Shown here: in pieces, positions 8,256 through 64,000 of the stretch
Layout: each line of letters begins with the position of its first letter
Numbering within the stretch: the stretch's first letter is position 1
IMG/VR virus record: IMGVR_UViG_3300042868_003730
Location: 83,922-147,921 of that record
DNA length: 64,000 nucleotides
Strand: one strand, 5' to 3'
DNA from: a virus
Translations under genes and position numbers: made by a program
The notes under the pieces: model-generated
What the model saw: the letters and a program-made list of their open reading frames with translations, nothing else
Databases searched by the model: none
What the model was told of the DNA's origin: nothing

Positions 8256-11200
8256 TTTAGTTTATCGTAAAAGTTCAACTCCTGCAGCGAATGTAAGTAC
8301 TACATTCAAGGGTTCACCATTAACGAATGATGAACTAGATAATAATCTATTTGGTATTAATGCTGAAGTTCAATTAAAAGCACCAATCAATAATGCTGTT
8401 TTCACTGGAACGACAACGATCCCAAGTATTACTGCCACTGGCGGTACAATAAACAATATCACAATTGGCGCAAGCGGTGCTTCTACTGGTGCGTTCACCA
8501 CATTAACAACTACAGGTGATGTTAACGTTGATGGTGGTGACATTACAACGGCAGCAACGACATTCAATTTACTTAACGCAACTGCTACTACAGTGAACTT
8601 TGCTGGGGCAGGTACTGCGGTTACTATCGGTGCTACGACTGGAACTGCCACAATCCGTAATGCAACTCTAGCAGTAACTAATGCAGCCACAGTAGGAACT
8701 ACATTAGGCGTTACAGGTAACGTAACAATCGGAGCATCCAAATTTGTTGTTACCGCAGCAACTGGTAATACTGCTATTGCTGGCGATGTTGCCGTCGATA
8801 CCAATAAGTTTACAGTCGCTGCAGCGACTGGTAATACTGCTGTGTTGGGTACATTTAGTTCCGGTGGACTTTCTACCCTTAATTCTTTAACAGTAACTAA
8901 CGCATCTACACTATCTGGCGGACTTAGTACAACTACTGGCTCATTTAGCGGTCAAGTTACATCAACAGTGGCAATCGGAACTGCTCCATTTGTTGTAACG
9001 TCAACAACTAAGGTCACTAACTTAAATGCAGACAGAGTCGATGACTTTACAGCAGACCAAGCAAATACTGCATCTGCTATTGTCGTGAGAGATGCGTCAA
9101 AGAATATAAACATTAGTAATGCAGTAATGTCCGGATCGACTTCTGGGACTACTACTTTACAACCAACAGCTATCTCTGGAACTAGTGTTCTGACTCTTCC
9201 AGCTGCGACTGACACTCTGGTTGGAAAAGCAACAACTGATACGTTGACAAATAAATCATTCAGCCTCGCGAGCAATACATTAACTGGAACTCTGGCTCTG
9301 TTTAATACTGCTCTCACAGATGCTGATTTTGTTTCTATTGCTGGCGCAGAGACACTGACAAGTAAGACTTTAACTAGTCCAGTAATAAACACTGCCACTA
9401 TCTCTGGTGGTACAATCAATAACACAATAATTGGCGGAACAACTAGAGCAGCTGGTTCGTTCACTACATTAAATGCGAATAGTACTCTTGATGTTACTGG
9501 AGCAACTACTCTCTCCAGCACATTGGCAGTTAATGGTGCAAGTTTAACGACTACTGCAACTACGTTTAATTTAATCAACGCAACAGCGACAACATTAAAT
9601 CTCGGAGGAGCGGCGACAACAATCACTGTTGGTGCGGTAACAGGAACAACGACTGTAAGAAATAATGCCTCTATTACCGGAACTCTTGGTGTAACAGGAA
9701 CATCTACTCTTGCTGCTGTAACAGCAACTACTGGATCATTTAGCGGTCAAGTTACATCAACAGTGGCAATCGGAACTGCTCCATTCGTAGTAACATCAAC
9801 TACCAGAGTGACGAATCTGAACGCAGATAGAGTTGATGACTTTACAGCAGACCAAGCAAATACTGCATCTACAATAGTAGTTAGAGATGCATCTAAGAAT
9901 ATAAACATCAATAACGCAGTAATGTCTGGTTCAACTTCTGGAACGACGACATTACAACCAACAGCTATCTCTGGTACTAGTGTTCTGACTCTTCCGGCAG
10001 CAACAGATACTCTTGTTGGTAAAGCAACAACTGACGTATTAACTAATAAGACAGTCAATCTAACAAGCAATACATTAACTGGAACTCTGGCTCAGTTTAA
10101 TACTGCGCTAAGTGATGCCGATTTCGCCACTACTTCTGGTGCTGATACGCTGACGAATAAGACACTCAATCTGGCGAGTAATACATTATTAGGAACTCTG
10201 GCTCAGTTTAATACTGCGCTAAGTGATGCTGATTTTGTTTCTATTGCTGGAATCGAAACAATAACCAGTAAAACATTAACTAGTCCAGTAATAAACACCG
10301 CTACTATCTCTGGTGGTACAATCAATAATGCAATCATTGGCGGAACAACTAGAGCAGCTGGTTCGTTTACTACATTAAATGCGAATAGTACTCTTGATGT
10401 TACTGGTGTGACAACTCTTTCTAGTCTTGTTGTTGGTACTTCTGCAACAATCGGAACTACTCTAGCAGTCACTGGTGATGTTTCTGTTAATACTAACAAG
10501 TTTAATGTAACTGCATTAAGTGGTAATACTGCAATCGCAGGTACATTAGGTGTTGCTGGTAATGTTGCTGTTGCTACAAATAAGTTTACTATCGCAGCAG
10601 GATCTGGTGATACTGTGGTTGCTGGAACATTAAATGTTTCCGGAACATCTACTCTTGCTGGTGTGAACGCAGGCGCATTGAGTGCTAGTTCGTTAACATC
10701 CTCCGCTGGTGTGCAAGGAACAACTCTTACGTCTACTGTTGCTATTGGTACTGCACCACTCACAGTAACATCAACTACTAGAGTAACGAATCTAAATGCA
10801 GATACTGTTGATGGAATGAATTTTGCTACAGTTAATGTCGGTGGAGTTCTGAACACTGATCAGCGAGGTGGTGTTGCGTATGCATCTGATGCATCTAATA
10901 TTACATATGTCGCGCCAGGAACATCTGGATATTTACTGCAATCAAATGGATTAAATTCTGCTCCTACCTGGGTAGCAGCAAATGCACTAACTGCTGGTAA
11001 TTCTTCTACAGCAGCAAATGTTTTGGGTGGCGCAGCTGGATCAATATTATATCAGAGCGCAGTAGATAATACTGCAAAATTAACGATTGGTTCGACAGGA
11101 CAAATCCTTACAGCTGGTGCTACGTTACCAGAATGGTCAAGCAGCATATCAGTATCAGGAACTTTGACTCATGGTGGTTTGACGCCATCTGCTGGCACGA

Positions 11201-20599: not shown

Positions 20600-23377
20600 A
20601 TGTTAAGTTTTAACGCAATTTCATCAAATGCAATATCTGCTATAGGCAGAGTATTTGATGTTGCGTTAAATGAAAATGCCGTCACTGCGTCATCTTTAGA
20701 AACTTCTGGTGTAGTAACGGCTAGGTCAATATCAGAAACAAGAGCTACATCTTCAGCAGAAACTGCTGGTGTTGTTGCCGCAAGATCAATAGCAGAAACA
20801 AGAGCTACATCTTCTACTGAAACTTCTGGTGTTGTTGCCGCAAGATCAATAGCAGAAACAAGAGCTACATCTTCGGCAGAAACTTCTGGCGTAATAACGG
20901 CTAGGTCAATATCAGAAACAAGAGCTACTGCATCAACAGAAACTGTTTTACTGACTGCTGGCGCAACCAGAGCTGACACTAACTCCACTACGTCAACAGA
21001 AACTTCTGGCGTAATAACGGCTAGGTCAATATCAGAAACAAGAGCTACATCTTCTACTGAAACCACCTTACTGACTGCTGGCGCAACAAGAGCTGACACT
21101 AACTCTACTACGTCAACAGAAACTTCTGGCGTAATAACGGCTAGGTCAATATCAGAAACAAGAGCTACATCTTCAGCAGAAACTGCTGGTGTTGTTACTT
21201 CTGCCTCAGTATCAGAATCTAACTCTACCGCTTCGTCAGAAACCACCTTACTGACTGCTGGCGCAACAAGAGCTGACACTAACTCTACTACGTCAACAGA
21301 AACTTCTGGCGTAATAACGGCTAGGTCAATATCTGAGTCAAACTCATCTGCATCAACAGAAACTACCTTACTGACTGCTGGCGGAACAGTATCAGAAACT
21401 CGTTCTACTGCTTCCACAGAAACCACTACATTAACGGCTGGTGGAACAGTATCCGAAACAAGAGCTACTGCGTCAACAGAAACTGCTGGTGTCGTAACTT
21501 CTGCTACATTATCCGAATCAAGAGCTACTGCATCAACAGAAACTGCCGCATTAACGGCTGGTGCCAGCATAGCAGAATCAAGAGCTACTGCTTCGTCAGA
21601 AACTGCTGGTGTTGTTACTTCTGCATCAGTATCCGAAACAAGAGCTACTGCTTCCACAGAAACCACTACATTAACAGCTGGTGGTTCAGTAACAGAAACT
21701 CGTTCTACTGCTTCCACAGAAACCACTACATTAACGGCTGGTGGAACAGTATCCGAAACAAGAGCTACTGCTTCCACAGAAACCACTACATTAACGGCTG
21801 GTGGAACAGTATCCGAAACAAGAGCTACATCTTCTACTGAAACCACTACATTAACAGCTGGTGGTTCAGTAACAGAAACAAGAGCTACATCTTCTACTGA
21901 AACCACTACATTAGTAGCTGGTGGAACTTTATCTGATACTAACTCTACTGCTTCCACAGAAACCACTACATTAACAGCTGGTGGAACTTTATCTGATACT
22001 AACTCTACTGCTTCGTCAGAAACCACTACATTAACAGCTGGTGGTTCAGTAACAGAAACTCGTTCTACTGCTTCCACAGAAACCTCTGGTGTAATTACAA
22101 CTACATCGAGAGCAGAAACAACTGCCAGTTCGTCATCAGAAAATAGAACATTAGTAGCTGGTGCAACTAGATCTGATACTAACTCTACTGCAACTACAGA
22201 AGCCTCTGGTGTAATTACAACTACATCAAGAGCAGAAACAGTAGCGGCGACATCGTCAGAAAACACTTTAATAATAGATTTTGAACCAATAGCAGAAACA
22301 ACTGCTACTGCATCAACAGAAACTGTTTTACTGACTGCTGGCGCAACCAGAGCTGACACTAACTCCACTTCGTCAACAGAAGTTTCTGTTGCGTCTTTAG
22401 TTGCTTCTGTAACTGACTCAACTAGTACTTCTGAGTCATCCGCTGCGTTTGTTAGTAATTTCCAGGCTATCATCAATTGCGCAGCAACGGTAACCGCGCT
22501 GTTAGATTTAGATGGAAACACAGAAGGTTCTCCTGCCGGAAATGCTGCTCCTGGATTCACTCCACTATCTAGCGTCGTTCTTGCTCAGCACATTGAATCT
22601 GCCCCAGCCGCGACCTATACAATAACAGCTGACTTTGATCCATTATTAGAGACTGAGATTACATCGGTGTTCTTCAATGATAATCCAGCAAATGTTCTTT
22701 CGTATTCTATCATTGGACCAGATGTGTTTATTACTGCAAATACACCAGCAGAGGTGTACGCACAGGCATCTACGTTTATGGTAAACAGAAAAGTTGTTCC
22801 ACAGTTTAATGAATTCTTTAATTATAATGTTAGATTCAATACTACAGTCAAGAGAGATAGCGCAGGAAACAATTTCTATTCAAATAAATTCTACTCCGAG
22901 CAAAATGTAATCTGTTTCCTACAGGATGATGGCACTGGACTAATTGATCTTTATGAAGAGATTACTCCTGGAACTACGAAGAAACTAAAGACAATTGGTA
23001 AAATAGACTATACCACTGGGTTCGTAGAGGTTCGCGGATTAATGATTACATCTCTTTACGATCTTGAGTTGTTCTTCTTCGTAGAATCCCTCGACGCGAT
23101 CATCCCTACGAAGGATTACTTCACTGCACAGAATAATCTCTTAGTGGACAGTAAGACCATAACTTTCCCTACTGGAGAACAGGTTGAGATTAGCCAGTAT
23201 GAGAAACAAACAGATATCGTTGATCTGGAGATTTATGTAACAGCCAGATCTTATGCATTGGGCAGTCCATTGACTACAGTTGAAACAAGAACAGCAACAT
23301 ATGTTCTTAGAATTGTTCCGGATTATAATATCGGTAAGAATGCCATCAAACAACTGGTCTTAGAACAAGCAGCATAA
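20600..23377 (+). CDS. Tail-fibre/structural protein with 60-nt tandem repeats
   Basis: 925 residues. A short leader (LSFNAISSNAISAIGRVFD) is followed from about residue 28 to 600 by near-perfect 20-residue repeats (for example TSGVITARSISETRATSSTE and LTAGATRADTNSTTSTE), one per 60 nt. After a linker, a non-repetitive C-terminal domain of about 280 residues (from FDPLLETEITSVFF to LVLEQAA) resembles a globular virion domain. The Ser/Thr/Glu-rich repeats probably form a rod. No strong ribosome site precedes the ATG. A spurious 654-codon antisense frame exists only because the repeats lack stops. The exact virion role is unknown; position just before the neck genes suggests a fibre or whisker-like part. 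Confidence 0.6.
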   Translation: MLSFNAISSNAISAIGRVFDVALNENAVTASSLETSGVVTARSISETRATSSAETAGVVAARSIAETRATSSTETSGVVAARSIAETRATSSAETSGVITARSISETRATASTETVLLTAGATRADTNSTTSTETSGVITARSISETRATSSTETTLLTAGATRADTNSTTSTETSGVITARSISETRATSSAETAGVVTSASVSESNSTASSETTLLTAGATRADTNSTTSTETSGVITARSISESNSSASTETTLLTAGGTVSETRSTASTETTTLTAGGTVSETRATASTETAGVVTSATLSESRATASTETAALTAGASIAESRATASSETAGVVTSASVSETRATASTETTTLTAGGSVTETRSTASTETTTLTAGGTVSETRATASTETTTLTAGGTVSETRATSSTETTTLTAGGSVTETRATSSTETTTLVAGGTLSDTNSTASTETTTLTAGGTLSDTNSTASSETTTLTAGGSVTETRSTASTETSGVITTTSRAETTASSSSENRTLVAGATRSDTNSTATTEASGVITTTSRAETVAATSSENTLIIDFEPIAETTATASTETVLLTAGATRADTNSTSSTEVSVASLVASVTDSTSTSESSAAFVSNFQAIINCAATVTALLDLDGNTEGSPAGNAAPGFTPLSSVVLAQHIESAPAATYTITADFDPLLETEITSVFFNDNPANVLSYSIIGPDVFITANTPAEVYAQASTFMVNRKVVPQFNEFFNYNVRFNTTVKRDSAGNNFYSNKFYSEQNVICFLQDDGTGLIDLYEEITPGTTKKLKTIGKIDYTTGFVEVRGLMITSLYDLELFFFVESLDAIIPTKDYFTAQNNLLVDSKTITFPTGEQVEISQYEKQTDIVDLEIYVTARSYALGSPLTTVETRTATYVLRIVPDYNIGKNAIKQLVLEQAA
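20683..22400 (+). repeat. Array of about 28 tandem 60-nt coding repeats
   Basis: The sequence repeats with exact 60-base periodicity; each unit carries an anchor such as (TC/AC)AGAAAC near its boundary. Several unit types alternate (types with GTAATAACGGCTAGGTCAAT, with TTACTGACTGCTGGCGCAAC, and with ATTAACGGCTGGTGGAACAG), and many copies are identical over most of their length. All changes keep the reading frame. Confidence 0.9.
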
Positions 23378-34124: not shown

Positions 34125-35462
34125 ATGGAACAATCTCGTCCTGATCTAGTTAAGAAGTGGGCTCCTATTCTTGAGCACGCTGATCTTCCACAAATCAAAG
34201 ATAACTACCGCAAGGAAGTTACTGCTGTTCTTCTTGAGAACCAAGAACGTGCTCAGCGCGAAGAGCGTCGTGCCCTGTTCGAAGACATTCCAAACGGATC
34301 GGCTGTTAGCGGTACATTCATGCCTGACAGTGGTGGTGTTGCTAAGTTTGACCCAGTTCTGATTAGCCTGGTTCGCCGTGCTATGCCAGCAATGGTCGCT
34401 TATGACATGTGCGGCGTTCAGCCAATGACCCAGCCTACAGGTCTGATCTTCGCAATGAAGTCAACCTATATGACAAGTGCTGGTGTTCGTGGTTCAGAAG
34501 CTCTGTTCAACGAAGCTGACACTGGTTACTCGGGTGTTGCTGCTGGTGGTACTGCTGGTACTTCCAACACTGGTGCTGCTCAGTCTGCACTGAATGGTTC
34601 TACAACTCCGATCACATCGGGTACTGCTTTCCCAACGGCAACTGCTGAAAACCAAACTGGTACTGGTACTGGTACTACCCAGCAAAATAACGGCGCTGGT
34701 TTCAACCAGATGGGATTCACAATCGAAAAGACTTCAGTTACTGCGCAATCGCGTGCTCTGAAGGCTGAGTACTCTGTTGAACTCGCACAGGACTTGAAGT
34801 CGGTTCACGGTCTTGACGCTGAAGCCGAGCTGAGCAACATCCTTTCGCAAGAAATCCTGGCTGAAATTAACCGCGAAGTTATTCGTACGGTTTACAACTC
34901 AGCTAAAGTTGGTGCTCAAGTCGGTACTGCTACTGCTGGTATTTTCGACCTTGACGTTGACTCGAATGGTCGTTGGTCAGTTGAGAAGTTCAAGGGTCTG
35001 ATGTTCCAAATCGAACGCGAAGCAAATGCAATTTACCAAACGACACGTCGTGGTCGCGGTAACTTCATCGTTTGCTCAGCTGACGTTGCTTCGGCTCTGG
35101 CAATGGCTGGTGTTCTTGACTACGCTCCTGCGCTGTCAACGAACCTGAACGTTGACGAAGCAAGCAACACGTTTGCTGGTGTTCTGAATGGTAAGTACAA
35201 AGTGTATGTTGATCCATATGCTGCTAACCAATCAGCTGACCAATTCCTGTTGGTTGGTTACAAGGGTTCATCGGCATTCGACGCTGGTATCTTCTACTGC
35301 CCATACGTTCCGCTGCAACTGTACCGCGCTACAGACCCAGCAACGTTCCAGCCGAAGATCGCTTTCCGTACTCGCTACGGTATCGTTGCTAATCCGTTCA
35401 CGGCTCTGACCGCTGGCGACAACATCTACTTCCGCAAGGTTCGCGTTCAGAACCTGATGTAA
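34125..35462 (+). CDS. 23: Major capsid protein gp23
   Basis: 445 residues (T4 gp23 is 521). It contains DPVLISLVRRAMPAMVAYD, CGVQPMTQPTGLIFAMKS, TIEKTSVTAQSRALKAEYS, ELAQDLKSVHGLDAEAELS and the C-terminal FRTRYGIVANPF, diagnostic of gp23. A propeptide is expected at the N-terminus; LFE at residues 51-53 fits a gp21 cleavage site. Residues about 125-205 hold a Gly/Thr/Ala-rich, low-complexity insert (probably a surface loop). Strong codon bias toward GTT/GCT/CGT/GGT fits high expression. A TTCG-loop terminator follows. Confidence 0.96.
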   Translation: MEQSRPDLVKKWAPILEHADLPQIKDNYRKEVTAVLLENQERAQREERRALFEDIPNGSAVSGTFMPDSGGVAKFDPVLISLVRRAMPAMVAYDMCGVQPMTQPTGLIFAMKSTYMTSAGVRGSEALFNEADTGYSGVAAGGTAGTSNTGAAQSALNGSTTPITSGTAFPTATAENQTGTGTGTTQQNNGAGFNQMGFTIEKTSVTAQSRALKAEYSVELAQDLKSVHGLDAEAELSNILSQEILAEINREVIRTVYNSAKVGAQVGTATAGIFDLDVDSNGRWSVEKFKGLMFQIEREANAIYQTTRRGRGNFIVCSADVASALAMAGVLDYAPALSTNLNVDEASNTFAGVLNGKYKVYVDPYAANQSADQFLLVGYKGSSAFDAGIFYCPYVPLQLYRATDPATFQPKIAFRTRYGIVANPFTALTAGDNIYFRKVRVQNLM

Positions 35463-54638: not shown

Positions 54639-57143
54639 TTGAATGATTCGTTTTATACGAACGTAGAGATCTTCGGTAATACCGTTATGACACGCGAAGT
54701 GATCAATGGTGTTCGCCAGAAGTCCAAAGAACAGTGGCAGCCGACGTTGTTTCTCAAAGACAACAACAATACTGAGAGTGTGTTCAAGAGTCTGTATGGC
54801 GATCCTGTGAAGGAAATCGTCGCAGGTAATATCCGTGAGACCAAGGACTTCATCAAGCAATATGATGGAGTGGATGGGTTCTCGATCTTTGGTCAGTTGA
54901 ACTTTACTCTGCAGTATCTCAACAATCGCTACCCACAGGCGATTACTCCAGATATGAATAATCTTTCTATCTGGTCAATTGACATTGAGACGCGCACAGG
55001 CGATGAGGGATTCCCTAAGCCAGAGACAGCGAACGAAGAAGTTGTTCTCATTACGCTGCAGAACGTAAAGACCAAAACCTGCTATACATTTGGCAAGGGT
55101 ACGTATATTGGTTATGCTGGCTATGATTCTAAATTCGTAAGTTGTGCCGATGAGTATTCACTGTTGAAGCAATTCCTGATGTTCTGGGAATTTTCTGACA
55201 TTGACATCATTACTGGCTGGAACATTGAGTTCTTCGACATTCCTTATCTGATCAATCGAATCAAGCGCATCCTGGGTGAAGATGCAATGAAGAAGATGAG
55301 TCCTTGGGGATTCGTCAGCGCAGAGATGCAGTCTTATCGTGGTAAAGAAGAAATGACTGTTGACATCAAGGGTATCGCTATCCTTGACTACTTGGCTCTG
55401 TACAAGAAGTTTACGTATACGAAGCAAGAGAGTTATTCTCTGAAGTATATCGCCGCTGAAGAACTAGGTCATACGAAGGTGGATCTTCCAGGTGACACTT
55501 TCAATGATAACATCGATCATCACTGGAATGACTTTGTTCATTACAACATCGTAGATACGCAGCTGGTAACTGAACTCGAGGATAAGTTGAAATTGCTTGA
55601 GTTGATCATTACGATGGCGTATCAGGCGAAGATCAACTTTACAGATGTGTTCAGTCCAGTAAAGATGTGGGATGCTCTGATTCATAATTCGCTGTTGCGC
55701 GAAAAGATCGTTGTGCCGCAGCGTGGGCATACTGGTAGTAGAAGCATCGATGGTGCTTATGTGAAGGAACCTCTCACTGGTAAGTACAACTGGATCGTCA
55801 GTCTTGATGCTACCTCGTTGTATCCAAGTATTATGATGTCATTGAATATCAGTCCTGAGACTTTCGCTGGTCGTACTGACATAAATATGGATTCTCTGCT
55901 AAAAGATTCAAGCATTACTTCTCCTTACGTTGACTCAGGTGCTGCTATTTCTCCTATCGGCGCAATGTTTACCAAAGAAAAGATTGGTATTCTTCCTCGA
56001 TTGATTAAGGAAATGATGGCAGCGAGAAAGACAGCAAAGAGTCAGATGCTTGGGCTTGAGTCCGAGTATGAGAAGTCAAAGGATGAGTCATTGCTTCCGA
56101 AGATCTCTGCTTTGAATAATCAACAGATGGCTGCGAAGATTGCATTGAATAGTCTTTACGGTGCTACGGCGAATGAAGGTTTCCGATTCTTTAATCCAGA
56201 TGTCGCTGAGTCAATTACTATCACTGGTCAATACATTCTCAAGAAGATTGAAGTTGCATTGGACATTGCTCTGAATAAGAAGTTCAATACTGGTGATCAT
56301 AAGTATCTTGTATATGTTGATACTGACTCTGTGTATGTGAATATGAAGCCAGTTGTTGATAAGTTCTTGGAAGGCAGACCAACATCAGATATCGTTCGTG
56401 CTCTAGAGAATGTAGCGAAGGATATTCTTCAGAATGAGATCAATAAGATTTGCGCTGAGGTAGCAGATACGCTTGGGTTCTTTGAAAACAAAATCCACTT
56501 CAAACTTGAAGCAGTTGGTGACACTGCTATCTGGTGCGCAAAGAAGAAGTATATTGTTCGCGTGCATTCTTCGGAAGGTGTTACTTATGCCAAGCCAAAG
56601 TTTAAGGTAATGGGTCTTGAGATGGTTCGTTCATCGACTCCTGCATTCATTCGTGGTAAGTTACGCGAGTCTCTTGTGCAGGTATTTGATGGTACAGAGA
56701 AGACCGTGCAGTTGTTTATTAGTGATGCACGTGAAGAGTTTAATAAACTTCCTATCTCTGCCATTGCCTTTCCTCGTACTGCCAATTCCATTGATGAATA
56801 TGCGGATAGTAATTCGATTTACAAGAAGGCAACTCCTATTCACGTAAGAGGTGTTCTGTTATATAATGAGATCGTAAAGAGGAAGAAACTTCAGAGCAAG
56901 TATCCTCTGATAAATGATGGCGACAAGATTAAGTTTATGTATCTGACGATGCCAAATCCACTGAAGGAAAATATCATTGCGATTCCTGCTGATGGAATTC
57001 TTCCTCCGGATCTTGGTTTGCATGAGTATGTTGATTATGAGATGCAATTCCAAAAGAGTTTCATCAATGCAATGGATATTGTTCTCCAGCCGATCGGTTG
57101 GACTTCTGAAGAAACAAGTTCCCTTGAGAGCTTCTTCGGATAA
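54639..57143 (+). CDS. 43: Replicative DNA polymerase gp43 (family B)
   Basis: 834 residues (T4 gp43 is 898). The TTG start (MNDSFYTNVEIFGN) follows TATGGAGAAG; the nearby ATG is out of frame and stops after seven codons. Exonuclease motifs: SIDIETRTGDEGFP (ExoI) and DIITGWNIEFFDIPYLI (ExoII), then YNIVDTQLVTEL (ExoIII). Polymerase motifs: SLDATSLYPSIMM (A), KIALNSLYGATANEGF (B) and YVDTDSVYVNM (C). The C-terminal tail ETSSLESFFG fits a clamp-binding peptide. It is somewhat shorter than T4 in the N-terminal and thumb regions. Confidence 0.97.
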   Translation: MNDSFYTNVEIFGNTVMTREVINGVRQKSKEQWQPTLFLKDNNNTESVFKSLYGDPVKEIVAGNIRETKDFIKQYDGVDGFSIFGQLNFTLQYLNNRYPQAITPDMNNLSIWSIDIETRTGDEGFPKPETANEEVVLITLQNVKTKTCYTFGKGTYIGYAGYDSKFVSCADEYSLLKQFLMFWEFSDIDIITGWNIEFFDIPYLINRIKRILGEDAMKKMSPWGFVSAEMQSYRGKEEMTVDIKGIAILDYLALYKKFTYTKQESYSLKYIAAEELGHTKVDLPGDTFNDNIDHHWNDFVHYNIVDTQLVTELEDKLKLLELIITMAYQAKINFTDVFSPVKMWDALIHNSLLREKIVVPQRGHTGSRSIDGAYVKEPLTGKYNWIVSLDATSLYPSIMMSLNISPETFAGRTDINMDSLLKDSSITSPYVDSGAAISPIGAMFTKEKIGILPRLIKEMMAARKTAKSQMLGLESEYEKSKDESLLPKISALNNQQMAAKIALNSLYGATANEGFRFFNPDVAESITITGQYILKKIEVALDIALNKKFNTGDHKYLVYVDTDSVYVNMKPVVDKFLEGRPTSDIVRALENVAKDILQNEINKICAEVADTLGFFENKIHFKLEAVGDTAIWCAKKKYIVRVHSSEGVTYAKPKFKVMGLEMVRSSTPAFIRGKLRESLVQVFDGTEKTVQLFISDAREEFNKLPISAIAFPRTANSIDEYADSNSIYKKATPIHVRGVLLYNEIVKRKKLQSKYPLINDGDKIKFMYLTMPNPLKENIIAIPADGILPPDLGLHEYVDYEMQFQKSFINAMDIVLQPIGWTSEETSSLESFFG

Positions 57144-57203: not shown

Positions 57204-58262
57204 ATGAGTTTGCTTGAACGACTTCGCAAGAATTCAACTATTAAAGATACTGCTATTCTTTCTGATAGCAAGTATTTCACCAAGAAAGATATGATCTCTA
57301 CCTCAATCCCTGCAATGAATATCGCATTGTCAGGTGAGATTGATGGTGGATTTGTTCCTGGTCTTACTTTGTGGTGTGGACCATCAAAGCATTTTAAGTC
57401 CATGTTCTCATTGATTATGGCAAAGGCATATCTGGATAAGTATCCGGAGGCAGTGATGATCTTTTATGACTGTGAGTTCGGCACACCAGCTGCTTACTTT
57501 AAGTCACTGAACATTGATCAAGAACGCATTCTCCATGTTCCTATTATGAATATGGAAGAGTTTAAGTTTGATGTTATCAAGCAGCTTGAGGCATTGAATC
57601 GCGGAGACAAGGTTATCTTTGTTATTGATTCGCTTGGTAATATGTCATCGAAGAAAGAAATGGATGATGCCATTGAAGGTAAGTCTGTTGCGGATATGTC
57701 TCGTGCCAAGCAGATGAAGTCTATCTTCCGTATGATTACTCCATACCTGAATCGTCTGGATATTCCTATGGTTGCTGTCAATCACATCTATATGGAACAA
57801 GGTCTGTATCCAAAGGCAATCGTCTCTGGCGGTACAGGTGTTTACCTTTCAGCTGATAACATCTTTATCCTTGGTCGTCAACAAGAGAAGGAAGGTACTG
57901 AGACTATCGGATACAACTTCATTATCAATGTTGAGAAGTCCAGGTATGTTCGTGAGAAGTCAAAGATTCCTATTGAAGTGAAGTTCGAGGGTGGCGTCTC
58001 TACTTGGTCTGGTCTGCTTGATATTGCTCTTGAGTCTGGTCATGTTATCAAACCTTCAATGGGTTGGTACTCCAGAGTCAATAAAGAGACTGGAGAGATT
58101 GAAGATAAGAAGTGGCGTGCAAAGGACACTGACTCCAAGTTGTTCTGGCAGTCGATTATCTACTCGGCTTCATTCCAGGAATACATCAAGAACTCATATC
58201 AAGTATCCAATGGTGACATTATCACTGATGAAGATATTGACGCAGAACTAGAGGAAGTTTAA
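57204..58262 (+). CDS. uvsX: RecA-like recombinase UvsX
   Basis: 352 residues (T4 UvsX is 391), AAGGAGATATACCT before the ATG. Walker A is WCGPSKHFKSMFSL (residues 57-70) with the T4-type GPSK-x-FKS signature; VIFVIDSLGNMSSKKE (Walker B), MVAVNHIYMEQG (L2 region) and SGGTGVYLSADNIFILG follow. It drives strand exchange for recombination-dependent replication with UvsY. Its stop overlaps the 2OG oxygenase ATG by one base. Confidence 0.95.
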   Translation: MSLLERLRKNSTIKDTAILSDSKYFTKKDMISTSIPAMNIALSGEIDGGFVPGLTLWCGPSKHFKSMFSLIMAKAYLDKYPEAVMIFYDCEFGTPAAYFKSLNIDQERILHVPIMNMEEFKFDVIKQLEALNRGDKVIFVIDSLGNMSSKKEMDDAIEGKSVADMSRAKQMKSIFRMITPYLNRLDIPMVAVNHIYMEQGLYPKAIVSGGTGVYLSADNIFILGRQQEKEGTETIGYNFIINVEKSRYVREKSKIPIEVKFEGGVSTWSGLLDIALESGHVIKPSMGWYSRVNKETGEIEDKKWRAKDTDSKLFWQSIIYSASFQEYIKNSYQVSNGDIITDEDIDAELEEV

Positions 58263-58792
58263 TGATTAACATTCGAATTATCGAAAGAGGTATCAATGTC
58301 AAGCCACTGCTGGATGAGGTTCTTTCTCTTCCTCCAGAGACTTGGGTCTCTCATGCAAAAGATACAACGCATAAGATAATCCCTATGACTGTTCCTGTCA
58401 TTTATGAGGGACAAGATACTTCTATCCTTGATTCGAGTGAGACAATCAATACTCCTAATTATTTTAAGTGTCCGAAGATTTTGAATTGGATGCGGCGCAG
58501 GAATTTCTATTACCATACCTGGGCAGGAATCTATAAACTTCCACCAGGTGGTATGGTTCCACCACACAAAGATGATAGCGGTGATTACTACATTGATAAG
58601 ATGCGTTATCATCTTTGCCTTCAAGGTAAGTACCTTTACAAAGTAGAAGGCGATCCAGTTTATACAATTACACCAGGAACTCTTTTCTGGTTTGACTTAC
58701 AGACAACACATAGTGCTGAGTGTATTAGTGATGATGACAGAATTACTTTGTTGTTCGATCTACCTAGACCAGATACCCTTGTTAATCCATAA
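58262..58792 (+). CDS. 2OG-Fe(II) oxygenase (Asp/Asn beta-hydroxylase-like)
   Basis: 176 residues. LPPGGMVPPHKDDSGDYYIDK gives the HxD pair (His102, Asp104); RYHLCLQGKY is the family's RxHL.L strand; the distal ligand is His150 in DLQTTHSAECISDDDR, and Arg160 is the likely 2-oxoglutarate-binding residue. This double-stranded beta-helix type is common in T4-like cyanophages, with unknown substrates (proteins or nucleic acids). It is translationally coupled to uvsX, hinting at a DNA metabolism role. Confidence 0.8.
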   Translation: MINIRIIERGINVKPLLDEVLSLPPETWVSHAKDTTHKIIPMTVPVIYEGQDTSILDSSETINTPNYFKCPKILNWMRRRNFYYHTWAGIYKLPPGGMVPPHKDDSGDYYIDKMRYHLCLQGKYLYKVEGDPVYTITPGTLFWFDLQTTHSAECISDDDRITLLFDLPRPDTLVNP

Positions 58793-58803: not shown

Positions 58804-59088
58804 ATGATTTTAGATCAAATTGAATTAGTACAGGATGCAGAACCAGACAAGATTAGACCGATTAGAATTATCGAAGGTGAATTTGAAGGTTTGGTAGTTA
58901 GGTTTGGGCGCGCATGGTTTCCAGAAACTGGGGAAAATAATCTTTCCTTTGAGATTGACATACTTGAGGGTACAATTGAGTCTGAGCAGGAACCTCGTTT
59001 ACACGATTTCCTTGGCCAGATCTTAATGGCATTTATCCAAGAAGAAATGAAACGCGAAGAAAGAAACAATGACAAATCTGAGAATTGA
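58804..59088 (+). CDS. Small hypothetical protein upstream of gene 41
   Basis: 94 residues, GAGAGGTGAAT before the ATG (a GTG six bases upstream is less likely). The N-terminal half is beta-rich (IRIIEGEFEGLVVRFGRAWFP), then SFEIDILEGTIES, and the C-terminal part is a charged helix. It overlaps gene 41 by 20 bases. In T4-like aquatic phages similar small proteins occur between uvsX and 41; no function is known. Confidence 0.55.
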   Translation: MILDQIELVQDAEPDKIRPIRIIEGEFEGLVVRFGRAWFPETGENNLSFEIDILEGTIESEQEPRLHDFLGQILMAFIQEEMKREERNNDKSEN

Positions 59089-60493
59089 AGAAACGATTCT
59101 ATCCAATTTATTGATTGATGAGGAATACTCACGTAAGGCTACGCCATTCCTCGATGCTGATTACTTTGCCGAAAAGGCAGAAAAGACTTTACTCATGGAG
59201 ATCAATGGATTCTTCATGAAGTATAACAAGTTGCCTACGAAAGAAATTATTCGTGTGCAACTTGCGCAGAGAACTGATCTGACTGATACTGATCTCAAGA
59301 ATGCCATTGAGATCGTTGATAACTTTACTGATGAGAAACCAACCAGTAAAGAGTGGCTGTTGGAACAGACTGAGAAGTTCTGTAAGGAAAAGAGTGTATA
59401 CAATGCTATCCTTCGCTCTATCAAGATTATTGATGGTAAGGATAAGGAACTGAACAAAGAAGGTATTCCGAAGATTCTTCAGGATGCTTTGGCTATTTCA
59501 TTCGATACTGCAGTTGGTCACTCATACCTTGAAGATGCAACTGCTCGTTATGAGTTCTATACTCGTAAGGAAGAAAAGGTCGCATTCGATCTGGAGATCC
59601 TTAACGATATCACCAAGGGTGGTCTGGCAAAGAAAACGCTGACTCTGTTGGCTGCTCAATCTGGTGGTGGTAAGAGTCTCGTTATGAGTCACTTCGCCGC
59701 TGCTGCTCTTCGTCAGGGTAAGAATGTTCTTTACATTACTCTGGAAATGTCCGAGGAAAGAATCGCTGAACGTATTGATGCAAACCTACTTGGTATTGAC
59801 ATTGATAAACTGGCTGATCTTTCCAAGGAAGAATTCGTCCAGAAGATTGCTACGATTAGTAAAAAGACTCAGGGCAAGCTGATCGTCAAGGAATATCCAA
59901 CTGGCTCGGCTCATTCGGGTCACTTCCGTGGGTTGCTTGAAGAGTTGAAGATCAAGAAAGACTTTAAGCCTGACTTCCTGATCGTGGATTATCTTGGTAT
60001 CTGTGCGTCCTCGCGTATGAAGATGGGTGGTAGTGTTAACAGTTATTCCTATATAAAGAGCATTGCTGAAGAGCTGCGTAGTCTGGCAGTTGAGTATGAT
60101 GTTCCATTGATCAGTGCTACTCAGGTCAATCGTAATGGCTTTGATAACTCGGATATTGAACTTACAGATACTTCTGAGTCAATGGGTCTGGTCCATACTG
60201 CGGACTTGATGCTTGCTTTGATTCGTACTGAGGAACTGGATGAGATCAATCAAATCCTGATCAAGCAGCTGAAGAATCGTTATGCTGATACTGCAATCAA
60301 TAAACGATTCGTCGTTGGTATCAATCGTTCCAGGATGAAGTTGTTTGATCTTGAGAAGTCTGCCCAGACATCTATTGCTACTGGCTCATCCTTTAGTCCG
60401 AAGGGTAAGATGAAGAAAGTTGAGGAGCCAGACGTTCCTCTGTATGATCGTTCGAAGCCAAGACCTACGGACTTCGGTGGGTTCAAATTCTAA
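59069..60493 (+). CDS. 41: Replicative helicase gp41 (DnaB-like)
   Basis: 474 residues (T4 gp41 is 475). N-terminal RIEETILSNLLIDEEYSRKA; Walker A LLAAQSGGGKSLVMSH (about residues 193-205); LYITLEMSEERIAERIDAN; Walker B DFLIVDYLGI; and C-terminal TQVNRNGFDNSD with SMGLVHTADLMLALIR. It unwinds DNA at the fork and partners with the primase (gene 61, not in this window). It starts inside the preceding small gene and is the last protein gene before the RNA region. Confidence 0.94.
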   Translation: MTNLRIEETILSNLLIDEEYSRKATPFLDADYFAEKAEKTLLMEINGFFMKYNKLPTKEIIRVQLAQRTDLTDTDLKNAIEIVDNFTDEKPTSKEWLLEQTEKFCKEKSVYNAILRSIKIIDGKDKELNKEGIPKILQDALAISFDTAVGHSYLEDATARYEFYTRKEEKVAFDLEILNDITKGGLAKKTLTLLAAQSGGGKSLVMSHFAAAALRQGKNVLYITLEMSEERIAERIDANLLGIDIDKLADLSKEEFVQKIATISKKTQGKLIVKEYPTGSAHSGHFRGLLEELKIKKDFKPDFLIVDYLGICASSRMKMGGSVNSYSYIKSIAEELRSLAVEYDVPLISATQVNRNGFDNSDIELTDTSESMGLVHTADLMLALIRTEELDEINQILIKQLKNRYADTAINKRFVVGINRSRMKLFDLEKSAQTSIATGSSFSPKGKMKKVEEPDVPLYDRSKPRPTDFGGFKF

Positions 60494-60698: not shown

Positions 60699-60727
60699 TT
60701 TACTTTTATTCAAGTCTCAGGTATAAT
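60699..60727 (+). promoter_or_regulatory. Strong early promoter of the tRNA/RNA cluster (distal)
   Basis: TTTACT (60,699-60,704), 17 bases, TATAAT (60,722-60,727). It matches the TTTTATTCAA...AGGTATAAT consensus of the early promoters at 45,526 and 47,657. Confidence 0.85.
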
Positions 60728-60781: not shown

Positions 60782-60810
60782 TTTACTTTTATTCAACTTA
60801 GCGGTATAAT
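60782..60810 (+). promoter_or_regulatory. Strong early promoter of the tRNA/RNA cluster (proximal)
   Basis: TTTACT (60,782-60,787), 17 bases, TATAAT (60,805-60,810). The two tandem promoters read into the RNA array. The leader after it (60,817-60,842) can form ATCGG...CCGAT. Confidence 0.85.
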
Positions 60811-61074: not shown

Positions 61075-61149
61075 GCTCGATTCGTCTATTGGTTAGGACT
61101 CCAGGTTTTCATCCTGGCAAGAGGAGTTCGACTCTCCTATCGAGTACCA
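61075..61149 (+). tRNA. tRNA-Glu (UUC)
   Basis: 75 nt with encoded CCA. Acceptor GCTCGAT/ATCGAGT (first pair G-U), anticodon stem CCAGG/CCTGG with loop TTTTCAT, anticodon TTC, T-arm GAGGAGTTCGACTCTCC. Its 3' ACCA overlaps the beginning of the closing helix of element 3, so tRNA maturation and that helix may compete. Confidence 0.9.
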
Positions 61150-61233
61150 TAATAAGTGTGTGATAAGACGGTGCGTGATTGCCAGTATCGTAACTTCGAG
61201 AGCTCGTCGGTCGAGGGCACACTTATTATGGTA
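61145..61233 (+). ncRNA. Stem-closed structured RNA element 3
   Basis: Closed by a perfect 16-bp helix (TACCATAATAAGTGTG at 61,145-61,160 with 61,218-61,233) around 57 nt. Inner pairing CTTCGA/TCGAGG or CTCG-TCGGT-CGAG is possible. The helix ends share TACCAT with the neighbouring tRNA-Glu 3' end and element 4; trimmed of these it is still a 12-bp stem. Confidence 0.5.
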
Positions 61234-61329
61234 CCATATTGAAGCGCATTACGACTGACCAACTTCGGGTGTGGTTAGTTCCAGAAATAGGTCGTAATTG
61301 ATTTTACGGGCAGTGTGTTTCAATATGGT
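61233..61329 (+). ncRNA. Stem-closed structured RNA element 4
   Basis: 97 nt closed by a 16-bp helix (ACCATATTGAAGCGCA at 61,233-61,248 with TGTGTTTCAATATGGT at 61,314-61,329) in which two positions differ from element 1 but remain G-U pairs. An inner perfect 7-bp stem TTACGAC/GTCGTAA (61,249-61,255 with 61,291-61,297) stacks directly on it, enclosing an ACCA/TGGT hairpin. Same closing-helix family as elements 1 and 5. Confidence 0.55.
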
Positions 61330-61418
61330 GTGTTTCCAGTTTCACCAATCTCTCAGTTAAAAGCTGTTGATGAGTAAAGGGTGCGAGAAAATCAAATCCT
61401 TCTGGGCAGAACATGCCG
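61330..61418 (+). other. Spacer between RNA elements 4 and 5
   Basis: 89 bases with no tRNA and no ORF of note. Weak pairing is possible (CACC...GGGTG, CCAG...CTGG), so it may hold another element with a less regular closing stem, but I cannot support a defined fold. Confidence 0.3.
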
Positions 61419-61511
61419 CCATATTGAAGTGCATTCAAGCAATGACAGGAGTGGTAGCCCTGTATCTTGCTGGACTAAAGACCTACTACGTCTGAGTGCA
61501 TTTCAATATGG
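61419..61511 (+). ncRNA. Stem-closed structured RNA element 5
   Basis: 93 nt closed by a 15-bp helix (CCATATTGAAGTGCA at 61,419-61,433 with TGCATTTCAATATGG at 61,497-61,511, one G-U). Inside, a long hairpin (AGCAA - ACAGG - loop - CCTGT - TTGCT) and a second one (AGAC - CTACTAC - GTCT, 7-nt loop) would give a three-way junction. It is the clearest multi-branched member and lies nine bases before tRNA-Lys. Confidence 0.6.
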
Positions 61512-61519
61512 TAGACAAC

Positions 61520-61595
61520 GGGACGGTAGCTCAGTTGGTAGAGCAGCGGACTTTTAATCCGTAGGTCGTGGGTTCGAGTCCCGCTCGTCCCACCA
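61520..61595 (+). tRNA. tRNA-Lys (UUU)
   Basis: 76 nt with CCA. Acceptor GGGACGG/TCGTCCC, D-arm TAGCTCAGTTGGTAGAGC, anticodon loop CTTTTAA (anticodon TTT), T-arm GTGGGTTCGAGTCCCGC. Canonical. Confidence 0.96.
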
Positions 61596-61604
61596 AAGAA
61601 TAAT

Positions 61605-61681
61605 GCGGAAGTGACGCAATTGGTAGACGTGCTTGCCTTAGAAGCAAGATTCTGAGAGTTCGAGTCTCTCCTTCCGCACCA
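61605..61681 (+). tRNA. tRNA-Leu (UAG) with short variable region
   Basis: 77 nt with CCA. Acceptor GCGGAAG/CTTCCGC, Leu-like D-arm ending GGTAGACG, anticodon stem CTTGC/GCAAG with loop CTTAGAA (anticodon TAG), variable region only ATTCT, T-arm GAGAGTTCGAGTCTCTC. Bacterial tRNA-Leu normally has a long variable arm; its absence here is unusual. Confidence 0.85.
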
Positions 61682-61687
61682 ATTTAT

Positions 61688-61780
61688 GGGTGTTTTGATG
61701 CTATGGCGTGTGCATCCCGAGACTGTAAATCTCGTCCTATTAGGTAAACATTCCTGGTTCGAATCCAGGAACACCCACCA
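61688..61780 (+). tRNA. tRNA-Tyr (GUA)
   Basis: 93 nt with CCA. Acceptor GGGTGTT/AACACCC, anticodon stem CGAGA/TCTCG with loop CTGTAAA (anticodon GTA), long variable arm as expected for class II, T-arm CCTGGTTCGAATCCAGG. Confidence 0.93.
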
Positions 61781-61788
61781 AGATATAT

Positions 61789-61864
61789 TCCTCGATAGCT
61801 CAGTTGGTAGAGTGCCGGACTGTTAATCCGTTGGTCCCTGGTTCGAGCCCAGGTCGAGGAGCCA
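61789..61864 (+). tRNA. tRNA-Asn (GUU)
   Basis: 76 nt with GCCA end. Acceptor TCCTCGA/TCGAGGA, D-arm TAGCTCAGTTGGTAGAG, anticodon loop CTGTTAA (anticodon GTT), T-arm CCTGGTTCGAGCCCAGG. Confidence 0.95.
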
Positions 61865-61868
61865 TTTA

Positions 61869-61951
61869 GCGAGAGTGGTGGAATGGTAGACACAGCAGAC
61901 TTAAAATCTGCCGCTCAATGCGTACGGGTTCGAGTCCCGTCTCTCGCACCA
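61869..61951 (+). tRNA. tRNA-Leu (UAA)
   Basis: 83 nt with CCA. Acceptor GCGAGAG/CTCTCGC, D-arm with GGTAGACAC, anticodon stem GCAGA/TCTGC with loop CTTAAAA (anticodon TAA), variable arm CGCTCAATGCGT, T-arm ACGGGTTCGAGTCCCGT. Class II as expected, unlike the other Leu tRNA. Confidence 0.95.
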
Positions 61952-61955
61952 AGTT

Positions 61956-62035
61956 TTAGGTGATGACCCAAGCGTAAAGTTCCGGAACTGAGAAGCTAAG
62001 AAGCGTAAGTGTACAGCTGGTTTCGTACCACCTAA
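61956..62035 (+). ncRNA. tRNA-like stem-closed element 6
   Basis: 80 nt closed by a perfect 7-bp stem TTAGGTG/CACCTAA, the acceptor length of a tRNA, but with no CCA, no TTCRA T-loop and no clear anticodon arm. It contains the palindrome GTTCCGGAAC and a GTAC...GTAC hairpin. It sits between tRNA-Leu and tRNA-Arg and could be a decayed tRNA or another member of the structured-RNA series. Confidence 0.4.
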
Positions 62036-62038
62036 TTT

Positions 62039-62115
62039 GCGACCGTAGCTCAGATGGATAGAGCAGCGGATTTCTACTCCGTAGGTCAGCGGTTCGAATC
62101 CGTTCGGTCGCACCA
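62039..62115 (+). tRNA. tRNA-Arg (UCU)
   Basis: 77 nt with CCA. Acceptor GCGACCG/CGGTCGC, D-arm TAGCTCAGATGGATAGAGC, anticodon stem GCGGA/TCCGT with loop TTTCTAC (anticodon TCT), T-arm AGCGGTTCGAATCCGTT. It reads AGA, a codon used in this phage. Confidence 0.94.
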
Positions 62116-62126
62116 GATTTTTAAGA

Positions 62127-62191
62127 CACGGATACGTAGCACCTCCCTTTCACGGAGATGTATGCTCGTGGCAATTCTATGTAATTCCGTG
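62127..62191 (+). ncRNA. tRNA-like stem-closed element 7
   Basis: 65 nt closed by CACGGA/TCCGTG (6 bp). It contains CTCC - CTTTCAC - GGAG, a 7-nt anticodon-like loop that would read TTC, but no D- or T-arm consensus and no CCA. A separate TGACAG/CTGTCA hairpin (62,194-62,220) follows. It may be a degenerate tRNA. Confidence 0.3.
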
Positions 62192-62229
62192 ACTGACAGG
62201 AAAGAACCCATATACTGTCAACTTATTTT

Positions 62230-62304
62230 GGATCTAAAGTGTTCATGGACGCACACCTCTCTGTCTAAGAGGAAGAAGGAGATCGTTACTCCTTAGATCC
62301 GCCA
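62230..62304 (+). tRNA. tRNA-Asp (GUC), divergent
   Basis: 75 nt with G discriminator plus CCA. Acceptor GGATCTA/TAGATCC, D-arm GTG...CAC with GG in the loop, anticodon stem CCTCT/AGAGG with loop CTGTCTA (anticodon GTC), T-stem AGGAG/CTCCT. The T-loop ATCGTTA is not the TTCRANT consensus and position 8 is not T. G73 and anticodon both fit Asp. Confidence 0.75.
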
Positions 62305-62480
62305 TGATTAGGGTTTTCCTAAGTGAGAGAAAGGAGAATAAGTCTAAGTGTAATCACTGTAATAAAAATGTAATATTTTGAATGTTTTAGACTAAATACT
62401 TGTGGTGGTTGTATTAGCAGTTTCAATCCACTACGTCTCAATTTGTTAAACCGACATTAAAGGTCAAGAAGGAGTACTGA
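62305..62480 (+). other. Leader between the tRNA cluster and the monooxygenase gene
   Basis: A weak TTAGG/CCTAA hairpin near 62,308-62,322, then AT-rich sequence, a late-type CTAAATA at 62,392, a GTGG...CCAC hairpin around 62,401-62,433, and the ribosome site AAGGAG at 62,469-62,474. No ORF of note. There is no insertion-sequence, repeat or att-like signature at this junction that I can see. Confidence 0.5.
62392..62398 (+). promoter_or_regulatory. Late promoter element CTAAATA upstream of the monooxygenase gene
   Basis: CTAAATA 82 bases upstream of the ATG at 62,481, the same element found before structural genes in this window. It suggests the gene is placed under phage late transcription. 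Confidence 0.5.
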
Positions 62481-64000
62481 ATGTCAGAATTAACGCTAAA
62501 CAAAATCACCTCTCAAAAAGGTATCCCAATCGCCGAGGCAACTCGTCGCATCGCTGATCTCGGCTGGCAACCTAGCTATGTCCAGGAAGCATCAACTTTC
62601 CCTACCGACTATAAGATCGGAAAAGCACCTCGTGACCCAATGAAGCAAGTGCTGCGTTCCTACTTCCCAATGCAGGAAGAAAAGGACAGCCGTGTTTATG
62701 GTGCACTTGATGCCGCACTTCGCGGTGATATGTTCCGCAATACCCAGCCACGCTGGATCGAATGGATGAAGTTGTTCCTGGCTATCATCCCTTTCCCAGA
62801 AATTTCGGCTGCTCGCTCGATGGCAATGGTTGCTCGTCTAGCCCCAGGTGAAGAACTTCGCACTGGTTTCACCATGCAAATGGTTGACGAGTTCCGTCAC
62901 TCCACGATTCAGATGAACCTGAAGAAGTGGTATATGGAAAACTACATTGATCCAGCTGGTTTCGATATCACTGAGAAGGCATTCGGTCAATGCTATGCTA
63001 CGACTATTGGTCGTCAATTCGGTGAAGGTTTCCTGACTGGTGACTCGATCACTGCAGCAAACATCTATCTGACTGTTGTTGCTGAGACTGGCTTCACCAA
63101 CACGCTATTCGTTGCTATGCCTTCGGAAGCCGCTCGTAATGGTGACTACGCTTTGTCAACTGTATTCCTGTCGGTTCAATCTGACGAATCGCGACACATT
63201 GGCAATGGACACTCTCTTTTGATGTCCATCGTCAATGACCCAAGCAACCACCTTTTGCTCGAGCGTGATCTACGTTACGCATTCTGGCAAAACCATGCCA
63301 TCGTTGATGCTGCTATCGGTACTATCATTGAGTATGGTACGACTGACCGTGATAAGAACAAGGAGTCCTACTCTGAGTTGTGGCACCGTTGGATCTATGA
63401 GGACTACTATCGCAGCTATATGCTGCCTCTGGAAAAGTATGGTATCAAGATTCACCACGATGATGTTGGTGCTGCTTGGGATCGTATTGTTAAGAAGAAC
63501 TACGTTCACAAGACGGCTCAGTTCTTCTCAGTTGGTTGGCCTGTCAACTTCTGGCGCATCGAAGCCCAGACAGAAAAAGACTTCGAGTGGTTTGAACATA
63601 AGTATCCGGGCTGGTACGCTGAATTCGGCGACTACTGGAAGTGGTACGAAAAGCTGAGCCACCCTGGTCAGACCAACGTGCTGTTCAATCAGGAAGTTGG
63701 CTACTCGTATCCACATCGATGCTGGAGCTGCATGGTTCCTTGCTTGATTCGTGAAGACTTTGTCTATGATGAAGTTGAAGGCGAAGTGTTTACATACTGC
63801 TCGGAAGTTTGCCGTTGGACCCACAAGGTCGCTTTCTCCGGTGAATATGAAGGTCGTGCTACTCCAGCAATGGGTCGCTTTAGCGGTAAGCGCGAGTGGG
63901 AAGAGTGCTATGATGGTTGGGATCTAGCTGATGCTATTAAGGATCTAGGTTTTGTTCGTCCTGATGGCAAGACACTGATTCAGCAGCCTCACCTGCGCTT
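62481..64000 (+). CDS. prmA: Propane-monooxygenase-type soluble diiron monooxygenase, hydroxylase alpha subunit (3' truncated by window)
   Basis: 506 codons visible, open to the window end; the family is about 540-550 residues, so only the C-terminal tail is missing. All six diiron ligands are in order: Glu107 (PFPEIS), Glu137 and His140 (DEFRH), Glu202 (VVAETG), Glu236 and His239 (SDESRH). The likely active-site gating Thr is Thr206. A Cys-rich YHS-like segment (YPHRCWSCMVP, TYCSEVC) and GKTLIQQPHLR at the end match the PrmA/MimA type rather than MmoX. The enzyme oxygenates alkanes or related substrates and normally needs beta, reductase and coupling subunits, not seen here. ATG follows AAGGAG by 6 bases. 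No frameshift is seen. Substrate is inferred from similarity only. Confidence 0.93.
   Translation, partial: MSELTLNKITSQKGIPIAEATRRIADLGWQPSYVQEASTFPTDYKIGKAPRDPMKQVLRSYFPMQEEKDSRVYGALDAALRGDMFRNTQPRWIEWMKLFLAIIPFPEISAARSMAMVARLAPGEELRTGFTMQMVDEFRHSTIQMNLKKWYMENYIDPAGFDITEKAFGQCYATTIGRQFGEGFLTGDSITAANIYLTVVAETGFTNTLFVAMPSEAARNGDYALSTVFLSVQSDESRHIGNGHSLLMSIVNDPSNHLLLERDLRYAFWQNHAIVDAAIGTIIEYGTTDRDKNKESYSELWHRWIYEDYYRSYMLPLEKYGIKIHHDDVGAAWDRIVKKNYVHKTAQFFSVGWPVNFWRIEAQTEKDFEWFEHKYPGWYAEFGDYWKWYEKLSHPGQTNVLFNQEVGYSYPHRCWSCMVPCLIREDFVYDEVEGEVFTYCSEVCRWTHKVAFSGEYEGRATPAMGRFSGKREWEECYDGWDLADAIKDLGFVRPDGKTLIQQPHLR

Follow-up and report, generated by a model that had tools for sequence, protein, structure and literature searches.

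A T4-like phage carries, inside its tRNA cluster, a complete gene for the catalytic alpha subunit of a soluble diiron monooxygenase (SDIMO) that is, judged by its sequence, of group 5, the propane-type (PrmA). The explanation that we favor, with good confidence, is that this is an auxiliary metabolic gene (AMG), a prmA derived from Burkholderiales and carried as a single-gene cassette, the product of which would join the PrmBCD proteins of the host and sustain the monooxygenase during infection. The DNA analyzed (the window, 64,000 nucleotides; G000:C1:83922-147921) is the right end of the 147,921-bp virus record IMGVR_UViG_3300042868_003730. The first and last 127 bp of the record proved exactly identical, as is typical when a circularly permuted T4-like genome has been assembled into a circle.

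Sequence Features of the Encoded Alpha Subunit

The open reading frame at 62481-63998 stays open to the end of the window. Read across the record ends it is complete, with 554 aa plus a stop codon, owing to the exact 127-bp overlap of the contig ends.

62481..64000, + strand: first 506 codons, plus two bases, of the prmA-type SDIMO alpha gene, which closes at contig bases 128-272
62799..63197, + strand: stretch holding the diiron ligands E107, E137, H140, E202, E236 and H239, all six invariant in 22 relatives
63720..63812, + strand: Cys-rich segment C414, C417, C421, C440 and C444, conserved in PrmA

An earlier note on this DNA had described an apparently intact PrmA-type gene with six diiron ligands and the Cys-rich segment specific to PrmA, and all three claims stood: the frame closes across the record ends, and every ligand and cysteine named above is in place. 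The window frame matches Pfam Phenol_Hydrox (E=4e-61) and finds its best PDB match in MMOH alpha of the soluble methane monooxygenase (E=2e-59, residues 19-506), the homology to the MMOH/T4MO/phenol hydroxylase alpha chain being full-length. Both E-x-x-H motifs that characterize SDIMO alpha subunits are present (E137-x-x-H140 and E236-x-x-H239). The incomplete 506-aa form gave no match in NCBIfam, and an AlphaFold model of the protein (pLDDT 33) was too poor for use. Phage PrmA is predicted to be an active subunit of a propane-type enzyme.

Relationship to Bacterial PrmA and Its Operon

The closest bacterial protein is PrmA of the Burkholderiales MAG PBB1 (95% identity), followed by those of Rhizobacter, Polaromonas and other Burkholderiales (91-92%), while Rhodococcus PrmA and one ThmA-type protein are 63 and 39% identical, respectively. 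An 84-sequence tree places the phage protein with PBB1 and the bacterial locus L017, nested within Burkholderiales PrmA. A wider tree of 12 rows, whose deep nodes have moderate support (88-94) and whose reference proteins bear their customary group labels, keeps it in group 5, apart from MmoX, group 6, ThmA and the toluene monooxygenases; the propane-type identity first proposed from the letters alone is thus upheld by phylogeny. The best explanation is that prmA was acquired from a Burkholderiales donor. Bacterial group 5 PrmA proteins (Burkholderiales, Bradyrhizobium, Methylocella, Rhodococcus) are full-length homologues with 95-62% identity to the phage protein; all share its ligands and most the Cys-rich segment. 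Group 5 enzymes oxidize propane, and some of them also acetone or phenol.

Bacterial prmA heads, in the loci checked, an operon with the genes for the reductase, the beta subunit, the coupling protein and usually a GroEL-like chaperonin, whereas phage prmA stands alone. Nine bacterial loci were screened for these partners (L013, L014, L015, L016, L017, L029, L035, L038, L048). Seven have prmB, prmC, prmD and groEL downstream of prmA (L013, L014, L015, L016, L029, L035, L048), including the four nearest relatives with enough flank (L013, L014, L015, L016); L038 has prmB, prmC and prmD plus a 44-residue groEL match at the contig end, and L017, on a 5.4-kb contig too short to confirm an operon, gave a prmA match only. 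On the phage, tblastn over the whole record found no match to PrmB, PrmC, PrmD or GroEL, so that prmA is its sole prm gene, and the single-subunit nature to which the earlier note had pointed holds beyond the window end, where prmA closes and is followed by phage tRNAs and phage genes, with no prmB. Since it is in bacteria that the system is organized as an operon, the lack of one here counts against a complete PrmABCD system and not against the identity of the PrmA subunit. The record does encode a GroES-like protein; such genes are common among T4-like phages, and this one is not specific to a propane-type monooxygenase.

Expression Signals and Proposed Role

The gene is laid out as a one-gene cassette, with a late-promoter-like motif, a ribosome-binding site, the reading frame and hairpins.

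60699..60727, + strand: repeated early-type promoter, first copy (TTTACTTTTATTCA..GGTATAAT), ahead of the tRNA cluster
60782..60810, + strand: repeated early-type promoter, second copy, likewise before the tRNAs
62392..62398, + strand: CTAAATA, a motif resembling a late promoter, about 83 bp before the prmA ATG
62469..62474, + strand: AAGGAG, ribosome-binding site of prmA predicted from sequence

The CTAAATA motif is probably the core of the phage late promoter: it occurs 34 times on the record, counting both strands, and 24 called genes, many of them structural, lie at most 150 nt downstream of it. With a matrix built from 13 sites, the copy before prmA ranks 57th of 295,820 positions, with 0.03 expected in the leader; this candidate consists of the 7-base core without the full TCTAAATAA consensus.

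We infer the expression of phage PrmA, its assembly with host subunits, its substrate and its benefit as follows. A T4-like phage would have taken up prmA from a Burkholderiales donor and kept it as a single-gene cassette inside the tRNA cluster. During infection, fresh alpha subunit would be made, probably from the late-type promoter and perhaps in addition from transcripts that start at the early promoters of the tRNAs and run on into prmA. The host would provide the beta subunit (PrmC), the reductase (PrmB), the coupling protein (PrmD) and the dedicated chaperonin, and the mixed phage/host enzyme would go on oxidizing propane, acetone or a related substrate, yielding carbon and reducing power for phage replication as host transcription declines.

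By analogy, augmentation of the host enzyme is the most likely role, since one subunit, under selection and with its partners left to the host, is the pattern of pmoC and amoC. Phage pmoC (Chen et al., 2020, PMC7674155) and the amoC of Thaumarchaeota viruses each encode one subunit of a multi-subunit monooxygenase and have been proposed to reinforce the enzyme of the host; like prmA here, they occur without the other subunits and are related to the gene of the presumed host. These cases differ in that PmoC and AmoC belong to the membrane enzymes pMMO and AMO, whereas the present gene encodes the diiron-site subunit of a soluble enzyme.

A narrower form of the same explanation, overlapping with it in probability and in our judgment somewhat short of an even chance, holds that the phage copy replaces an alpha subunit that wears out fast or is shut off, the diiron-bearing chain losing its activity as it turns over or running short once host expression stops. 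The model for it is psbA of T4-like cyanophages, an AMG for a single catalytic, rapidly replaced subunit, although of photosystem II and not of hydrocarbon oxidation. Replacement would suit the presence of the catalytic subunit alone, the late-type promoter motif and the location of nearly all changes outside the catalytic N-terminal 321 residues; a gene-dosage benefit, however, explains these facts equally well. Replacement of a limiting alpha subunit is likely one form of augmentation. The gene may also be DNA cargo retained for other reasons.

Selection and Codon Usage in the Phage

Compared with its PBB1 homologue, phage prmA has a dN of 0.030 and a dS of 1.22; at the DNA level it differs by about 15% from the closest bacterial gene. 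A parsimony count with four outgroups, which is not a codon-model test, assigns 9 replaced codons and 110 synonymous changes to the phage branch, and 7 and 19, respectively, to the PBB1 branch. Only two of the 25 amino-acid differences between the proteins fall in residues 1-321, and none at a ligand. The GC3 is 0.51 in the phage gene and 0.76 in PBB1, and the codon score per codon (0.27) lies between those of bacterial homologues (0.00-0.10) and of phage genes (0.36 +/- 0.11), a shift in the direction of phage codon usage. These counts indicate that strong purifying selection acts on prmA in its phage setting, as befits an AMG, and the few replacements, many synonymous changes and shifted codons together show a residence long enough for recoding, during which the protein was held nearly constant.

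It is on these grounds improbable that prmA is a chance passenger of no use to the phage: the tRNA cluster looks like a hot spot for cargo and varies in content between relatives, as a passenger would have it, but the roughly 110 synonymous against 9 replacement changes speak for long residence under selection, and codon usage has shifted. Similarly doubtful, and slightly more so, is a changed role in which the phage subunit would not need host PrmBCD, for example by using other redox partners or by serving as a sink for iron or oxygen; the partner genes are absent from the phage, but the protein is strongly conserved over most of its length, and this and its 95% identity to a normal, operon-borne PrmA suggest unchanged partners. 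Augmentation of the host enzyme remains the preferred reading of the gene.

Insertion Site in the tRNA Cluster

The tRNA-Asp gene ends at 62304, 176 bp before the prmA ATG, the distance from a phage tRNA cluster already given in the earlier note. Downstream of prmA come two strong hairpins, seven tRNAs and further genes, phage ones among them.

61075..62304, + strand: upstream half of the tRNA cluster (Glu, Lys, Leu, Tyr, Asn, Leu, Arg, Asp)
62305..64000, + strand: window part of the inserted cassette, the whole of which is about 1.92 kb long and ends near contig base 353
Contig bases 361-1119: downstream half of the cluster, seven more tRNAs after prmA

Related contigs (L189-L193) lack prmA, although their upstream DNA is about 89-92% and their helicase protein 98-99% identical. 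The site is empty in L190, in which a few bases after tRNA-Asp are followed by tRNA-Ile and both flanks match closely; the approximately 1,922 bp that include prmA thus stand in place of 7 bp. By this comparison, the insertion is one gene with its own leader and terminator and not an assembly join to a bacterial operon. Gain by the phage is favored over loss in the relatives because prmA is absent from all of L189-L193 and the gene is of bacterial origin. The cluster (60494 to contig base 7900) has the appearance of a cargo hot spot, and relatives carry other open reading frames or nothing where this phage has prmA and a curli module.

A second IMG/VR contig (79,395 bp) aligns to the record over almost all of its length, with only two mismatches, and spans the boundary between the tRNA and prmA. 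Both contigs of the phage end within prmA, the last 89 codons being joined by the 127-bp overlap only, and the empty site supports both flanks of the cassette. That the assembly fused a phage contig to a bacterial prm operon, as might be suspected from contigs that terminate inside prmA and from phage scaffolds that often ended at or near pmoC owing to very similar bacterial genes (Chen et al., 2020, PMC7674155), is extremely improbable and was rejected: the left junction is identical in the second contig, GC3 is well below that of the nearest relative, phage tRNAs and phage genes instead of prmB come after prmA, and the empty site of L190 closely matches both flanks. The earlier view of prmA as a genuine phage gene is accordingly sustained by the second contig, the empty site and the phage genes and tRNAs on both sides: a metabolic gene of host origin that resides in a true phage genome.

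The Phage, Its Relatives and Its Host

The T4-like neighborhood read from the window was likewise recovered in the record, which codes for T4-type portal, major capsid, sheath, terminase and gp43-type polymerase, as expected of a T4-like myovirus, and for prohead protease, baseplate and DnaB helicase of T4 type.

34125..35462, + strand: T4-like major capsid protein
54639..57143, + strand: T4-like DNA polymerase
57204..58262, + strand: UvsX-like recombinase
59069..60493, + strand: DnaB-like replicative helicase (T4 gp41 type), left-hand phage neighbor of prmA

The reading frame 3' of UvsX (58262-58792) matches a PHROG of unknown function and, by eye, may be cupin-type hydroxylase-like. Long internal direct repeats, 75-88% identical, occur at 20691-22240 and 8930-10406 inside large frames, which are probably tail or fiber genes.

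Similar T4-like phages of 141-147 kb are Melnitz (a Methylophilales phage) and the Pelagibacter phages HTVC008M and Mosig. Melnitz and Mosig have related portals, Melnitz and HTVC008M have CsgG and CHASE2 cyclase homologues, and Melnitz shares the permuted tmRNA; the three differ in lacking an SDIMO gene, and their proteins are just about 37-53% identical to those of this phage. A cargo module at contig bases 1121-6111 (minus strand) encodes a CHASE2 adenylate/guanylate cyclase, a FecR-domain protein, a curlin-repeat protein, CsgG and CsgF. Its cyclase and CsgG are about 37-45% identical to the homologues in Melnitz and HTVC008M, and the module is absent at the corresponding place in L189, L190 and L193. 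In Melnitz, csgG and csgF were reported without csgA or csgB (PMC9004378); unlike that set, csgG and csgF here adjoin the gene for a curlin-repeat protein.

A permuted two-piece tmRNA (contig bases 7444-7804, tag ANDSVYDVALAA) scores with the Rfam models tmRNA_permuted and beta_tmRNA, the betaproteobacterial type; short matches to it were found in four Burkholderiales genomes and none in one Bradyrhizobium genome. Permuted tmRNAs have been reported in Melnitz-like phages (PMC9004378). Given the donor lineage of prmA and the betaproteobacterial tmRNA, the host is probably a member of the Burkholderiales.

Novelty and Implications

No other phage SDIMO alpha subunit was found in INPHARED (tblastn) or PHROGs, and IMG/VR scans with PrmA, MmoX and toluene monooxygenase queries, based on short peptide patterns that would miss divergent copies, returned the same phage only; this agrees with the earlier note, whose author knew of no such gene in a phage. 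A search of open-licence papers on phages and SDIMO or propane monooxygenase gave nothing relevant. The only INPHARED hits, to 'Acinetobacter phage MD-2021a' (23%), were rejected. In the entry CAKLQH020000032.1 the hit lies within a complete operon for phenol hydroxylase, accompanied by benzoate genes, and the entry looks like a bacterial chromosome contig mislabelled as phage; CAKLQF020000006.1 gave the same hit. On balance, we lean towards regarding this gene as the first phage-encoded SDIMO catalytic subunit, one that would be swapped into the propane-type monooxygenase of the host and steer the oxidation of short alkanes or co-metabolized solvents during infection.

The known phage genes of the pMMO/AMO family encode the PmoC/AmoC subunit, and there is debate about what that subunit does. 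Because soluble diiron enzymes can be reassembled from their individual components, the question of why phages carry one monooxygenase subunit becomes directly testable. A complete, conserved gene for the catalytic subunit without the other subunits suggests that the phage tops up the gas- or solvent-oxidizing enzyme of its host during infection, and the possible influence of viruses is thereby widened to enzymes that oxidize propane and related gases and co-metabolize solvents such as 1,4-dioxane.
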